DNA of 50,096 bases from NCBI GenBank assembly GCA_022703375.1, contig JAKLDS010000012.1, positions 1-50,096 of the forward strand, written 5' to 3'. Positions 2,533-31,335 of this stretch are shown in pieces; position 1 is the stretch's first letter; every line of letters begins with the position of its first letter. This DNA comes from Deltaproteobacteria bacterium. GTDB taxonomy: Bacteria > Desulfobacterota > Syntrophia > Syntrophales > Smithellaceae. The notes under the pieces were generated by a model. The model saw only the letters and a list, made by a program, of their open reading frames with translations, had not been told where the DNA came from and did no database searches. The position numbers and the translations under genes are program-made.

Positions 2533-3675
2533 CTATTGCAAAATTGATTTGGCAATTATTATTTTCATGATTTCATTTGTTCCGGCCAGAATACGCGTGA
2601 TGCGGATGTCGCGCCAGGCGCGGGCAATCGGGTATTCCTCACAGTAGCCGTAGCCTCCGAAAAGTTGCAGGCAGCGGTCGGCGACGCGCCAGGCCATTTC
2701 CGTAATCCAGAATTTGGCCATCGAAACGTCGGTGACGATATCGCATTTTTGCCAGTGTTCAACGATTAATTTATCCACGAAAGTGCGGCCGATTTTTACT
2801 TCCGCCGCCATTTCGGCAATGGCAAACTGGGTGTTCTGGAATTGAGATAGCTTTTTGCCGAAAGCCTCGCGCTCTTTGCAGTAACGGATTGTTTCGGCCA
2901 GCATGAATTCAGCGGCGGTAACAGCGCCAATCGCGCAGATGAGCCTTTCCTGCTGGAGATTGGTCATCAGCTTTTTAAAACCGGTCCCTTTTTCTCCCAG
3001 ACGATTTTCTCTCGGAATCCGGCAGTTCTCGAAAAACAACTCCGCCGTATCCTGCGAGCGCCAGCCGATTTTTTTGAGCTTTTTGCCTTTAATAAAACCG
3101 GGGATATCCGCTTCCACCAAAAACAAATCAACGGCGGCATGGGAATTATCCTCCCTCGGGTCGCGGGCGGCGACAATGACCAAATCACAATTAATACCAT
3201 TGCTGATAAAAGTTTTCTGGCCGTTGAGGATAAAATAATCGCCGTCTGCCAGGGCTGTCGTTTTGATTCCCGCAACGTCACTGCCCGCCGCCGGTTCCGA
3301 CATGGCAATCGCGCAAAGCATGTCGCCCGCGGCGCAGCGCGGCAGGTACTTTTTCTTTTGTTCTTCATTAGCAAATTGCTGAATATAAGGGACAACAACA
3401 TCACTGTGCAGACGCGCGGAAAGACCATAAAAATTGGCCTTCGCCATTTCTTCAATCAGGATTGCCGAATAAAGAAAATCGGCGCTCTGCCCGCCGTATT
3501 CCGTAGGCAGCGCCGTGCAGAGAAAGCTGTTATCGCCCAGTTTCTTCCATGCCCAGCGCGGCACAATGCCGTCTTCCTCCCACTCATCCACATGGGGAAT
3601 TATTTCTTTTTCGAGAAATTTCCGGAAGGATGCCCGGAAAATCCGATGTTCTTCCTGATAAGGTATTATCTCCAT
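2533..3675 (-). CDS. Acyl-CoA dehydrogenase
   Basis: FAD enzyme introducing an alpha-beta double bond into acyl-CoA, passing electrons to electron-transfer flavoprotein. Seen: 380 aa with the usual three-domain order, the flavin/substrate signature AMSEPAAGSDV (124-134), the arginine-rich motif REAFGKKLSQFQ and the C-terminal GGYGYCEEYPIARAWRD block. The C-terminal position that carries the catalytic Glu in short- and medium-chain enzymes reads ILAGTNEIM, without Glu. Glu243 in LQQERL lies where isovaleryl-CoA and long-chain dehydrogenases carry their base, which suggests branched or longer substrates. Start ATG at 3675 has AAGGAT upstream. It is the last gene of the minus-strand run, separated from the acyl ligase by the DUF4143 ATPase. 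Confidence 0.9.
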   Translation of the reverse strand: MEIIPYQEEHRIFRASFRKFLEKEIIPHVDEWEEDGIVPRWAWKKLGDNSFLCTALPTEYGGQSADFLYSAILIEEMAKANFYGLSARLHSDVVVPYIQQFANEEQKKKYLPRCAAGDMLCAIAMSEPAAGSDVAGIKTTALADGDYFILNGQKTFISNGINCDLVIVAARDPREDNSHAAVDLFLVEADIPGFIKGKKLKKIGWRSQDTAELFFENCRIPRENRLGEKGTGFKKLMTNLQQERLICAIGAVTAAEFMLAETIRYCKEREAFGKKLSQFQNTQFAIAEMAAEVKIGRTFVDKLIVEHWQKCDIVTDVSMAKFWITEMAWRVADRCLQLFGGYGYCEEYPIARAWRDIRITRILAGTNEIMKIIIAKSILQ

Positions 3676-26894: not shown

Positions 26895-26980
26895 AACTGA
26901 TTCTATTTTAAAGAGGATACTCTCCCTGCGTAAGCAAGCGAATTGGGAGTGACGGGACGGGGGAGTTAGCGGAAAAACAG

Positions 26981-27008
26981 GTGTTATGTCCCCGGAAAAA
27001 GCCGAAAG
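26981..27008 (-). repeat. REP-like sequence, RAYT 2 family (solo copy)
   Basis: GTGTTATGTCCCCGGAAAAA followed by GCCGAAAG is the inverse of the sequence just left of RAYT 2 (29612-29646) and the same as its right end (30361). No transposase is attached. It lies in the 238-bp gap between selA and the first acyltransferase gene. Confidence 0.7.
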
Positions 27009-27132
27009 AAGGACGTGTGGTGCAACATATTTCAAATAGATAAATAACTTTTATTGCTTATTCTCATTGTTTTCTATAAATTACATCATCACTTAAAATC
27101 AACGCTGGGACAGCAGTATAGAGCGAAACCAA

Positions 27133-28329
27133 ATGAATGATAAAAAATCAGAACGGATTCTTTCCATTGATATTCTTCGCGGCTTTTGTCTGATCTGTAT
27201 GGTGCTGGTTCACTTAGTGGTTTATTGGGGCGACTCAGGCGCCGTGAATACCTGGCCCTATTTCTTTCTCAACCATGTGATGGCCGATTGGGGAGCGGCC
27301 TGCTTTCTGATGATGATGGGAATGAGCCAGGTTTTTTCGGCTCAGCATCGCGACGGCGAAAATAATATTCTGGCCTTCAAGCGCGCCCTGATCCGCGGGG
27401 GATTCATTTTCATAATGGGGATAATCATGTTGGCCCTTGCCTGGGGACCGGGTCATATCTGGCAATGGGATATCCTGACGCTCATGGGATTTGCGACGGT
27501 GATGCTGTTTTTCTGCCGCCTGCTGCCCTCCTGGCTGATCCTGCTTTTTGTCGCAGGCCTGGCTGTTTGCACGCCCCTGCTGAGGAATGGGATCGATTTC
27601 AATGCCGTCTGGGGAGGCGGTTTTATCGATGTGCCTGTCATTTCAAGCTATCTTCCCGGTATGATGCTTGATCCCGCCAGGGAATATGAGGTGATTTGGC
27701 GGATAAAAGAAATTGTTCTGGGCTTTTTGTTCACCGGTGAATTCCCGCTTATGCCCTGGTTTATCTTTCCACTGCTGGGTTTTGTTCTCGGGCGCAGGCT
27801 TGTCGGCGGCGGGATGCTAAACGACCTGCCTTTTCTGGCGATAATCGGCGGCTTGCTGGCCGTTCTGGGGCTGGGTTGGGCCTATGCATCAATTGGCCGG
27901 CCTCCGTCAGCCATCATTACCGGGTATATTGCCCCGCTCAGTTTTTATCCCGACTCCTTTACGATGATCTGCTATCAAACGGGGATTGTGCTGCTTATTT
28001 TCTCCGGTATGTTTTACATCTATGATGTCCGCAAACAAGATAAAAACAAAGCGGGGTTCTTTGCCGGCATCTTTAATCTTGCCAGCCGCTCCTCCCTCAC
28101 GTTTTATTTCCTTCATTATCTTCTGATCGGGTGGCCACTGGCGCTGATTCACGTTCTGACCGGCCGCTATTACAAGTATGACATGTTAAGCGCGTATATC
28201 GCGCTCTTGGCCGGCGTTGGCGCTGTCATCCTGCTCGTGTCGCTCTTAAAGCTATGGGGAAAAAGCAAAAACAAATACAGCCTGGAATGGTTTCTCGACC
28301 GGTTGATAAGACGCTTTGCCTCTTTGTGA
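27133..28329 (+). CDS. DUF1624/HGSNAT-type multi-pass membrane protein (acyltransferase-like)
   Basis: 398 aa with about ten hydrophobic segments. The N-terminal RILSIDILRGFCLICMVLVH matches the start of the DUF1624 / heparan-alpha-glucosaminide N-acetyltransferase catalytic family, in which a membrane histidine accepts an acetyl group from cytosolic acetyl-CoA for transfer across the membrane. His22 in MVLVH and His48 in FLNHVM are candidates. The natural acceptor in bacteria is mostly unknown; cell-envelope sugars are the usual guess. It is followed 176 bp later by a related gene, and REP-like repeats lie outside the pair. Confidence 0.7.
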   Translation: MNDKKSERILSIDILRGFCLICMVLVHLVVYWGDSGAVNTWPYFFLNHVMADWGAACFLMMMGMSQVFSAQHRDGENNILAFKRALIRGGFIFIMGIIMLALAWGPGHIWQWDILTLMGFATVMLFFCRLLPSWLILLFVAGLAVCTPLLRNGIDFNAVWGGGFIDVPVISSYLPGMMLDPAREYEVIWRIKEIVLGFLFTGEFPLMPWFIFPLLGFVLGRRLVGGGMLNDLPFLAIIGGLLAVLGLGWAYASIGRPPSAIITGYIAPLSFYPDSFTMICYQTGIVLLIFSGMFYIYDVRKQDKNKAGFFAGIFNLASRSSLTFYFLHYLLIGWPLALIHVLTGRYYKYDMLSAYIALLAGVGAVILLVSLLKLWGKSKNKYSLEWFLDRLIRRFASL

Positions 28330-28409
28330 GAAAAGCTGTTTTTGACGTGCAACTTTCTTTTTCAAATTAGGAGTTAAACGGGTGATGCCGCATCATTGCG
28401 CTGGTCAAC

Positions 28410-28437
28410 TTTTGCATCAATTGCAAAACGTTTTTTG
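28410..28437 (+). terminator. Possible weak terminator between the two acyltransferase-like genes
   Basis: TTTTGCA-TCAAT-TGCAAAA followed by CGTTTTTT. The stem is only 7 bp and AT-rich, so partial readthrough into the second gene is likely. Confidence 0.35.
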
Positions 28438-28505
28438 ATTTGCAGGAAATCAATGCCATAAAATTTTTCCGCAAGCGCAGAAAAAACCAACAGAATTGAG
28501 GAAAT

Positions 28506-29606
28506 ATGCAAGAACGAATGCCGTATTTTGATCATGTCCGCGGTATACTGGTGGCATTAATGATTATGAACCACACGGTTGTTGTTTACGGGACAGACCT
28601 GGTGCTGGAAAATCCTCTTGGGGGTTTTTTAACAAAAATCATTATCTGGGTCGGTGCGCCGCTTTTTATGATTTTAATGGGCATATTTTTCGTTTATCCG
28701 AATGCCAGACCGGCGTCGGTGAGAATTGTCAGGGGCTTCAAGCTGTTTTTGCTGGGGCTTGTTCTGAATTGTCTGCGTTTAGTTCTTCCGTACCTGATTG
28801 CCAAATTTGTCAATCCTCATGCCCTTTCAAATTTTCACTATCTTACTCCGAATAGCGATTTTCCGGTTCTGTGGCAGCTTTTCTATTTGATGGATATTCT
28901 GACTTTTGCGGGATTGGCCTTTATCATTCTGGCGCTGTTTGACCTGTTTTTTAAAAAGGACTGGCATTTGGTTGTTTTGGGATTGCTTGTTGCCTGGGCG
29001 GCCCCCGCCTTATGGGGAACGGGAAGGGACTGGGGAGTCTTTTATCCGCTGGTGCAGCCTTTTTGGGGCAATGCCCTCATACAAGGCCTTGAGAGCGACA
29101 CGTCGTTTCCCGTGTTCCCCTGGCTTGTATATCCCATTGTCGGCGTCCTGATCGGAAGGGCATTTATCAGGGGCAAAGCACTAGGCGCGGTAGTTAAGAA
29201 AATGCTGTTCGCCGCCCTGCTTCTGGGTGCGTCAGGCGGGCTAATTGTCTTTCTAAGCAAGACAAACCAGTTTGGCGATTTCTACCGCATGTATCCGGGT
29301 GCTACCTTTCTGTGTATTGCGATTGATTTGCTGTGGATTGGCATGTTTATGCTCTTTGCAAAGTTCGGGGTTTTTCAGAAAACCCTGAATTATCTCACTT
29401 TCTGGAGCAAAAATATCACGCTGATATATCTGGTGCAATGGGTGCTGATCGGTTTTGGCATTGTTATTCTGGGTTACCGCCAACTGGACAATTCTTGGAT
29501 AGTTCTGGCGCTTATTCCGGTGTTTTGTACGCTCAGTTATTTCGCGACGAAAAAGCTTCTGCGATCGCCCCGATTCATGCGTGTCCTTACCTGGTTTACA
29601 CGCTAG
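28506..29606 (+). CDS. Second multi-pass membrane acyltransferase-like protein
   Basis: 366 aa with about ten hydrophobic segments and the same N-terminal layout as its neighbour (MPYFDHVRGILVALMIMNHT), with a conserved-position His in the first membrane helix. Shared features with the upstream protein include an acidic/proline loop before a PWLVYPIVGVLIGR segment (upstream: PWFIFPLLGFVLGR). This suggests an old duplication, though overall identity looks low. Family assignment to DUF1624/HGSNAT is weaker than for the first gene. The ATG at 28506 has GAGGAAAT upstream. Confidence 0.65.
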   Translation: MQERMPYFDHVRGILVALMIMNHTVVVYGTDLVLENPLGGFLTKIIIWVGAPLFMILMGIFFVYPNARPASVRIVRGFKLFLLGLVLNCLRLVLPYLIAKFVNPHALSNFHYLTPNSDFPVLWQLFYLMDILTFAGLAFIILALFDLFFKKDWHLVVLGLLVAWAAPALWGTGRDWGVFYPLVQPFWGNALIQGLESDTSFPVFPWLVYPIVGVLIGRAFIRGKALGAVVKKMLFAALLLGASGGLIVFLSKTNQFGDFYRMYPGATFLCIAIDLLWIGMFMLFAKFGVFQKTLNYLTFWSKNITLIYLVQWVLIGFGIVILGYRQLDNSWIVLALIPVFCTLSYFATKKLLRSPRFMRVLTWFTR

Positions 29607-29611
29607 GTGTT

Positions 29612-29646
29612 GGCTTTATTCCGGCTTTATTCCGGGGACATAACAC
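29612..29646 (+). repeat. REP-like left end of RAYT element 2
   Basis: GGCTTTATTCC occurs twice in tandem and is followed by GGGGACATAACAC. This is inverted relative to 30361-30383 and 26981-27008. The first copy begins 5 bp after the acyltransferase stop codon. Confidence 0.75.
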
Positions 29647-29690
29647 ATATTTCTCTTGAAAAAAACACTATAATATTCTAATCCTTTCTC

Positions 29691-30356
29691 ATGGCACGCA
29701 TATCTCGAATAGTCGTTCTAGGATATCCACATCATATAACGCAGCGTGGTGTTCGTTCTATCGATATTTTTAAAAATGATAGTGACAGAAACACCTATTT
29801 GCAGTTTATCAAAGAGGAAACGCTACGCTGTGAGATTGATGTTCTCTCCTGGTGCCTGATGACTAATCATGTTCACTTTGTAGCTGTGCCACACGATGAA
29901 TCATCGTTCGCCAGGGGATTTGGGGAAGCCCATAAGAGATACACTCGCATGAAGAATTTCAGCGACGGTGTACGCGGATATTTATTTCAGGGACGATTTG
30001 GTTCCTGTGTGCTGGACGAACGTCATTTGCTTGCGGCTGTCCGCTATGTTGAGAATAATCCTGTTGCTGCCGGCATCGTGACGCATGCCTGGGAGTATCA
30101 GTGGTCGAGTGCTGCTTATCATGTTGGTAAGATTGAAGATGATGTTCTTGTTAAAGACAGAAACTTATTCGGGCTTGTAGATGATTGGCGGATTTATCTC
30201 GGCGAGGCAGAAAACGATGATTTTAATACAATAAGAAAAGCGACAAGAACAGGCCGTCCCGCAGGTGATAACGATTTTACAATTAAAATGGAAAGTCGGA
30301 CTGGGCGGGTACTCAGACAAGCAAAGCCCGGAAGAAAGAAACGGCAGAAAAGCTGA
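29691..30356 (+). CDS. REP-associated tyrosine transposase (RAYT, Y1_Tnp), shorter subtype
   Basis: 221 aa. Seen: HUH motif His60-Val-His62 in MTNHVHFVAVP, the family block GYLFQGRFGSCVLDERHLLAAVRYVENNPV, and the C-terminal GRPAGDNDF...GRVLRQAKPGRKK typical of this subtype. It lacks the DnaA-like C-terminal domain of the first RAYT. At the position of the candidate catalytic Tyr102 of RAYT 1 this protein has Phe103, so either another tyrosine acts (for example Tyr84 or Tyr118) or it is inactive. Inverted REP-like ends flank it (29612-29646 and 30361-30383). Its stop lies 10 nt before the rluD start codon. Confidence 0.88.
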   Translation: MARISRIVVLGYPHHITQRGVRSIDIFKNDSDRNTYLQFIKEETLRCEIDVLSWCLMTNHVHFVAVPHDESSFARGFGEAHKRYTRMKNFSDGVRGYLFQGRFGSCVLDERHLLAAVRYVENNPVAAGIVTHAWEYQWSSAAYHVGKIEDDVLVKDRNLFGLVDDWRIYLGEAENDDFNTIRKATRTGRPAGDNDFTIKMESRTGRVLRQAKPGRKKRQKS

Positions 30357-30360
30357 AATA

Positions 30361-30383
30361 GGTGTTATGTCCCCCGAAAAAAA
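30361..30383 (-). repeat. REP-like right end of RAYT element 2, containing the rluD start codon
   Basis: GGTGTTATGTCCCCCGAAAA inverted relative to the left end. The ATG at 30367-30369 inside it is the rluD start, so the first five codons of rluD are repeat sequence. Confidence 0.75.
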
Positions 30384-31335
30384 GGAAATCAAATTTACCG
30401 TCACCGCTGCTGCCAACGGGCAGCGGTTGGATATTTATCTTGCGGCAAAGGATGAGGAACTTTCCCGCTCTCAGGTAAAAATTGCCATTGAAGACGGCCT
30501 GGTGCTGGTTAATAATCTGGCGCCGAAAGTCTCGCAAAAACTGAAGACGGGCGATGAAATCATCCTGAAAAAAATCCCGGCAGCGGTTGCCGTCGCCCGC
30601 CCGCAGAATATTCCTCTGGAAATCGTCCATGAAGATGCGGCAATCATAGTCATCAACAAACCGGCGGGTATGGTCGTCCATCCGGCGCCCGGCAATCCCG
30701 ACAATACTCTGGTCAATGCCCTGCTTTTCCACTGCCATGATCTTTCCGGTATCGGCGGCGTACTCCGGCCCGGCATCGTCCATCGCCTGGACAAGGACAC
30801 TTCAGGGCTGCTGGTTGCCGCCAAATCCGATGACGCGCACCGGAAACTGGCGGCGCAATTTGAAAAACACCTGGTCCACAAGATTTATTACGCGCTGGTC
30901 TGGGGCGATATCCGGGGCTCTCACGGCGAGATAATAATGCCCGTGGGCAGACATCCTTCCGACCGGAAAAAAATGTCCACAAAAAGCCGCCGCGGCCGCG
31001 ACGCGATAACCCTCTGGAAAGCGAAAGAACGATTTGGCATGGCAACGCTGCTGGAAGTTGATATCCGAACCGGCAGAACCCACCAGATTCGTGTGCATCT
31101 GGCTGACCGGGGTTATCCGGTAATCGGCGACAAGGTGTACAGCCATTTTCCCCACAATCTGAAAATCGCCGCGGCCGCCCTGAAAGAGCAGCTCCGCCTG
31201 CAGCAAAGACAGGCGCTGCACGCCGCTTCTCTCTCTTTCCTGCACCCCGTAAATGGCGAGAGAGTGGTCTTTACAGCCGCCCTGCCCGATGATATGAGTA
31301 AACTTTGCAGCGCGCTGCGAGCCAACGAAAGTTGA
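30367..31335 (+). CDS. rluD: 23S rRNA pseudouridine synthase, RluD/RluA family
   Basis: Isomerises uridines in 23S rRNA helix 69 (RluD role by similarity). Domains (322 aa): S4 RNA-binding domain at about 18-75 (GQRLDIYLAA...SRSQVKIAIEDGLVLVN) and a catalytic domain with HRLDKDTSGLLV, where Asp142 is the nucleophile, plus RTGRTHQIRVHL. The ATG at 30367 lies inside the right repeat of RAYT element 2; the next in-frame ATG would remove the S4 domain, and an upstream ATG at 30265 overlaps the transposase gene. It is first of a run of closely spaced plus-strand genes, with pgeF 4 nt after the stop. Confidence 0.92.
   Translation: MSPEKKEIKFTVTAAANGQRLDIYLAAKDEELSRSQVKIAIEDGLVLVNNLAPKVSQKLKTGDEIILKKIPAAVAVARPQNIPLEIVHEDAAIIVINKPAGMVVHPAPGNPDNTLVNALLFHCHDLSGIGGVLRPGIVHRLDKDTSGLLVAAKSDDAHRKLAAQFEKHLVHKIYYALVWGDIRGSHGEIIMPVGRHPSDRKKMSTKSRRGRDAITLWKAKERFGMATLLEVDIRTGRTHQIRVHLADRGYPVIGDKVYSHFPHNLKIAAAALKEQLRLQQRQALHAASLSFLHPVNGERVVFTAALPDDMSKLCSALRANES

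Follow-up and report, generated by a model that had tools for sequence, protein, structure and literature searches.

Terminal inverted repeat of a Y1 transposase element as the probable start codon of an rluD-like gene

The right end (AGGTGTTATGTCCCCSGAA) of a Y1 transposase element flanked by terminal inverted repeats (TIRs) probably now serves as the ribosome-binding site and start codon of rluD, and the same end appears to have been reused in other genes.

Junction of the element with rluD

The window, by which we mean the whole stretch of 50,096 nucleotides analysed here (contig C24 of genome G000), carries on its forward strand a transposase gene of the Y1/HUH type (positions 29691–30356, 221 aa), identified with Pfam Y1_Tnp and an alignment of six copies. 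The left TIR of the element is located at 29630–29647 on the reverse strand, with the match to TGTGTTATGTCCCC at 29634–29647, and the right TIR, GGTGTTATGTCCCC, occupies 30361–30374 on the forward strand. As inverted arms, the two ends are 89% complementary over 28 nt. The gene rluD (30367–31335, forward strand) begins with an ATG at 30367–30369 inside the right repeat, as the earlier note had claimed, and the same note correctly placed the transposase stop codon (TGA, 30354–30356, forward strand) 10 nt upstream of this ATG. The rluD product contains the pseudouridine synthase (PF00849) and S4 (PF01479) domains and scores 291 bits with the RluA-family model TIGR00005 (cut-off 192.7). Since its score with the RluD equivalog model NF008385 (269 bits) is below the cut-off of 351, the gene name rluD is likely but not certain.

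Three matches to the repeat with at most one mismatch were observed in the window, versus 0.01 expected from shuffles. In genomes of the order, the forward repeat pattern was found in 33 of 155 and the reversed control pattern in 0 of 155; together with the shuffles, this comparison rules out chance similarity. The right end also occurs as a solo copy (GGTGTTATGTCCCC) at 26980–26993 on the forward strand, 86 nt past the selA stop. It reads MSPEKAERRTCGATYFK and then meets a stop codon, so that the earlier statement that it also encodes MSPEK is right for those five residues. The solo copy might be a duplicate of the rluD start, since the two regions are 85% alike over 33 nt, but its match to the element is confined to the repeat. 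The stretch from the solo right end to the left end of the element (26980–29647) contains two acyltransferase genes, which thus have inverted repeat copies on either side, in the manner of a passenger segment. Another Y1 transposase at the contig start (61–453) is distant from the rluD-linked one (29% identity).

A scan for in-frame alternatives bore out the proposal that the ATG in the repeat is the sole plausible start of rluD. The open frame extends 135 nt upstream of the ATG to a stop, and its only start-like codon in this extension is a GTG at −102, inside the transposase gene. Over the 120 nt scanned downstream, the first start-like codon is a TTG at +60, in the conserved QRLD motif. These codons, the open frame, and a GTG at +24 in the rluD of G013 leave room for a true start elsewhere, either at the upstream GTG or at a downstream codon. 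Such a start is nevertheless very improbable: most of the upstream extension would overlap the transposase gene, the rluD of G017 has no upstream in-frame start, and the downstream TTG of the window sits in a motif common to its relatives.

The Shine–Dalgarno (SD)-like sequence AGGTG at 30360–30364 (forward strand) has an anti-SD pairing energy of −6.3 kcal/mol, and this value is the same in all three genomes that carry the element at rluD. In 11 native rluD contexts, chosen by hand, the energy ranges from −5.9 to −10.0 kcal/mol, and pairing is weaker at the other element ends that precede genes (mutY, −1.9; tlyA, −4.7; a lipoprotein-like gene, −3.2 kcal/mol). When aligned to the 16S end, AGGTG would have a spacing equivalent to about 5 nt in the case of a GGAG-type SD; this should be acceptable. 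Initiation of rluD would probably combine AGGTG with reinitiation by ribosomes that have terminated at the transposase TGA, 10 nt upstream, and from the gene arrangement translational coupling of rluD to the transposase is plausible. In G065 and G066, too, 10 nt separate the transposase stop from the repeat ATG, versus 19 nt in G045. Since the gap thus belongs to the element, the 10-nt geometry is a property of the element and is no evidence of adaptation at rluD.

Starts of rluD in the family and history of the insertion

The transposase was searched for in 51 genomes of the family, and rluD in 40 genomes. The exact repeat stands at the rluD start in three of 41 family loci, namely the window and those of G013 and G017, two species of another genus with the transposase directly 5′ of rluD. 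Their transposases are 86% (G013) and 89% (G017) identical to that of the window. In all three carriers, rluD starts with MSPE from the repeat, and the gap between the transposase stop and the ATG is 10 nt.

Among the 38 non-carrier loci, G053 was left out (its match begins at residue 29 and the start is unreadable), and the candidate start nearest to that of the window was chosen in the remaining 37. The start codons are TTG in 26, GTG in six, and ATG in five of these loci (TTG or GTG in 32/37). The earlier note had proposed a comparison of the N-termini of relatives; an MSPE start outside the carriers was found in 0 of the 37 readable loci. Residue 2 is Ser in 21 of the 37, and 13 show an xSxE pattern, like MSPE. 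Since both features are this common, a change to MSPE may have affected the RluD protein little. The idea that the start and leader of rluD had been replaced is supported for the start, whose ATG lies in the element end, while the leader itself may be little altered.

Some family members have a native rluD start that resembles the element end (e.g., TTGTCCATCGAA, MSIE, beside ATGTCCCCCGAA, MSPE). Starts of the form TTGTCCAT[TC]GAA or alike (MSIE) occur in some members of the family, most of them in a single genus, and G057 and G058 read GTGTTTTGTCCATCGAA at rluD with no such element found. Twelve of the 37 non-carrier starts share 11–14 positions with the 18-nt element end; among ATG-first ORF starts of the collected loci, seven of 616 share at least 11 (621 scored, five element cases set aside). 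The resemblance and the G057 and G058 starts favor an alternative explanation in which rluD has kept its native start: a family start like TTGTCCATCGAA would double as the right end, with the element inserted beside it. We give this explanation little credence. The nearest relatives of the carriers lack the resemblance, matching the 18-nt end at 7 (G003), 6 (G008), 9 (G005), and 6 (G010) positions, and GGTGTTATGTCCCC is exact in the three carriers while ATGTCCCC was found at 0 of the 37 other readable rluD starts. Moreover, the native starts read for mutY and tlyA are unlike the element end, yet the repeat ATG heads both genes elsewhere (see below). We therefore retain the view that the start codon probably came with the element; some native rluD starts may mimic the element end and so act as targets.

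The seven compared genomes agree in the gene order hemW-selA-rluD-pgeF-hldD, with hldD not found in the G005 stretch, and in G003 the end of selA lies just before rluD. The cargo between selA and the element is different in each carrier, and a blastn comparison of their left flanks (600 nt each) gave no match. Metagenome assemblies account for many of the named matching records.

The synonymous divergence (dS) of the transposase between G000 and either G013 or G017 is 0.75–0.76, while that of five flanking genes is 1.43–2.86, which is near saturation. Between G013 and G017, the values are 0.27 for the transposase and 0.69–1.07 for the flanking genes, and the transposase dS overall is about 0.25–0.53 of that of its neighbors. 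In an unrooted tree of five proteins from seven genomes, G003 and G005, which have no element at rluD, are placed between G000 and G013/G017/G008 with supports of 98–100. Since the transposase is less diverged than its neighbors and the carriers do not form one clade, at least two separate arrivals of the element at the rluD start, or its transfer, are probable. The tree joins G013 and G017 as sister genomes (support 91), and therefore their insertion may be a single one.

The alternative history is one old insertion before rluD that was inherited vertically, was lost in G003, G005, and G010, and decayed in G008, with a transposase that is slow or homogenized by exchange. This alternative concerns the history of the element and not the use of its start codon. 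It accords with the grouping of the three rluD-linked transposases, with the identical junction geometry, and with a decayed 3′ remnant of the transposase between selA and rluD in G008, about 3 kb from rluD. It requires several losses on the tree, however, and the low transposase dS described above speaks against it. An intrinsically slow transposase clock is opposed by a single control pair, G065–G066, in which the dS of the transposase is 0.159 and those of the neighbors are 0.157 and 0.259; the published rayt genes are described as evolving faster than their neighbors (PMC2817692). We consider a single old insertion unlikely, though by no means negligible, and prefer repeated arrival or transfer. 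The G008 remnant (L048, about 2890–3070) has a mutated repeat, and sensor-kinase-like and response-regulator-like genes separate it from rluD.

Other genes opened by the repeat ATG

We surveyed 98 distinct exact repeats in the collected loci, mostly from the family and the order. The repeat ATG heads a recognizable gene in six of the 98: rluD in three, and mutY (G015), tlyA (G059), and a lipoprotein-like gene (G005) in one each. At the last three genes, the transposase has shrunk or disappeared. ORFs of at least 200 codons number 6, 1, and 2 in frames 0, +1, and +2 of the repeat ATG, and those of at least 80 codons number 13, 6, and 8. Outward on the opposite strand, the three frames hold 4, 0, and 1 ORFs of at least 80 codons. 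The frame-0 excess is weak and only suggestive, since three of the six long frame-0 ORFs are rluD. Among the cases in frames +1 and +2, we read L133 and L165 as genes with their own later start, and L190 is probably not a gene. Seven further frame-0 ORFs of at least 80 codons were left uncounted (L216, L210 twice, L190, L218, L223, and L158). At L158 (G045:C29), a like element stands before an RHS-like frame of 101 codons opened by the repeat ATG, probably as an insertion inside an RHS gene. In the phylum sample, five of 395 genomes have the repeat; four further repeats from this sample open no long ORF, one of the four meeting the contig edge after 30 codons.

The mutY of G015 (TIGR01084, 8.8e-100) reads MSPELYHDKIK, whereas mutY in nine relatives reads MMKDADKIK or variants. 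No alternative in-frame start was found from the upstream stop to +120 nt of this gene. At the same locus (L170, G015:C9:84764-86367), another repeat of like orientation lies beyond the repeat-started mutY, and after it begins a short C-terminal fragment of a second mutY copy, an arrangement that suggests tandem duplication or replacement between repeats.

In G059, the transposase before tlyA (TIGR00478, 4.8e-75) is internally deleted, leaving about 27 N-terminal codons and the last few codons. Its left repeat has two substitutions, its right repeat is exact, and in-frame starts for tlyA are present upstream, within the transposase remnant. The native tlyA start was readable in five of 15 relatives tried. 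In G005, a 58-nt stretch before the lipoprotein-like gene matches the last stretch of the element at 78% and includes an exact right repeat; the gene has no NCBIfam match and contains in-frame TTG/GTG codons downstream. In G018, the acyl-CoA ligase gene behind an element uses a start of its own, and the right end of this element is lost. A series from an intact element through a remnant to an end alone would be expected if the end had been exapted, with one case here for each step.

Both ends of the element face outward with the same ATG, and either could act. Events that remove the own start of a gene would survive where the outward ATG of the element is in frame, and the element end would then be kept by selection while the transposase decays. 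It is possible, though we hold the idea with somewhat less than even confidence, that the ends are portable translation-initiation cassettes (an SD-like sequence, an ATG, and the MSPE frame) fixed in host genes by selection as the transposase decays, and that the native rluD mimics are perhaps their targets. Mobile elements bring promoters to neighboring genes. If our reading is true, a terminal repeat that has repeatedly turned into the start codon of conserved genes would be another route by which transposons rewire genes. It could also help explain the persistence of the element beside a housekeeping gene, since a host that lost the end would lose the start codon with it.

Class of the element and comparison with known systems

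The transposase has an HUH motif at residues 60–62 (H60-V61-H62) and Y119, all invariant in the six aligned copies, and we take Y119 to be the catalytic tyrosine. It passes Pfam Y1_Tnp (29.1 bits, cut-off 23), which is the only Pfam match at E 0.001, with no C-terminal HTH domain reported. A sequence search of the PDB gave no match.

The earlier note had called the element a RAYT. Two comparisons with REP–RAYT systems failed. The score with the NCBIfam RAYT model NF047646 (50.4 bits) is under the cut-off of 80, and the REP features are missing: the repeat GGTGTTATGTCCCC has no GTAG/GTGG head, and the right end has no hairpin that outscores shuffled sequence (z −0.44). A weak hairpin in the left flank (z −2.17) lies mostly ahead of the repeat. 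The TIR core GGGGACAT fits GGGGWSAS at seven of eight positions, the eighth base being T and not C or G, and eight TIR doublets of 49–80 nt were found in related genomes. Elements with GGGGWSAS repeats are described as TIRYTs (Di Nocera et al. 2013, PMC3733652; Quentin et al. 2018, subclass 2.1, PMC6006769). From these sequence features, the TIR-flanked class (TIRYT/TIRtron) fits the element better than REP–RAYT does, and this class is probably the TnpA_REP subclass 2.1 of Quentin et al.

Like the TIRYTs/TIRtrons, the present element has a Y1/HUH gene between inverted TIRs, lacks a REP hairpin at the right end, has a core near GGGGWSAS, and occurs with solo and dimeric TIR copies in genomes. 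It differs in the eighth base of the motif, in the absence of a reported C-terminal HTH, and in the use of the TIR as a start codon, which is absent from the consulted parts of those descriptions. With RAYTs/REPtrons, it shares a related transposase, inverted flanking repeats, and short REPIN-like doublets, and it differs from them in the right end without a hairpin above shuffles and in the RAYT model score below the cut-off.

The term “start codon” does not occur in the main texts of PMC3733652, PMC6006769, PMC2817692, and PMC8266576, so far as these were available. The literature searched, which excludes most subscription papers and is not proof of absence, contained nothing on point about start codons supplied by mobile-element ends. 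According to Di Nocera et al. (PMC3733652), misannotation may explain most REPs in N-terminal coding regions, which would then be extragenic. Intragenic REPs and Rickettsia palindromic elements (RPE) resemble the present case in that mobile repeat DNA is read as protein. They differ in adding residues inside proteins or at protein ends, whereas here rluD (in the window and in G017) and mutY have no other sensible start.

Mobile ends are also known as expression signals for their neighbors: insertion sequences have outward promoters, and the short ORF of integron attI1 helps the translation of cassettes. The element at rluD is similar in that a mobile end gives the neighboring gene an expression signal, and it differs in that the terminal repeat gives the start codon and joins the host gene.
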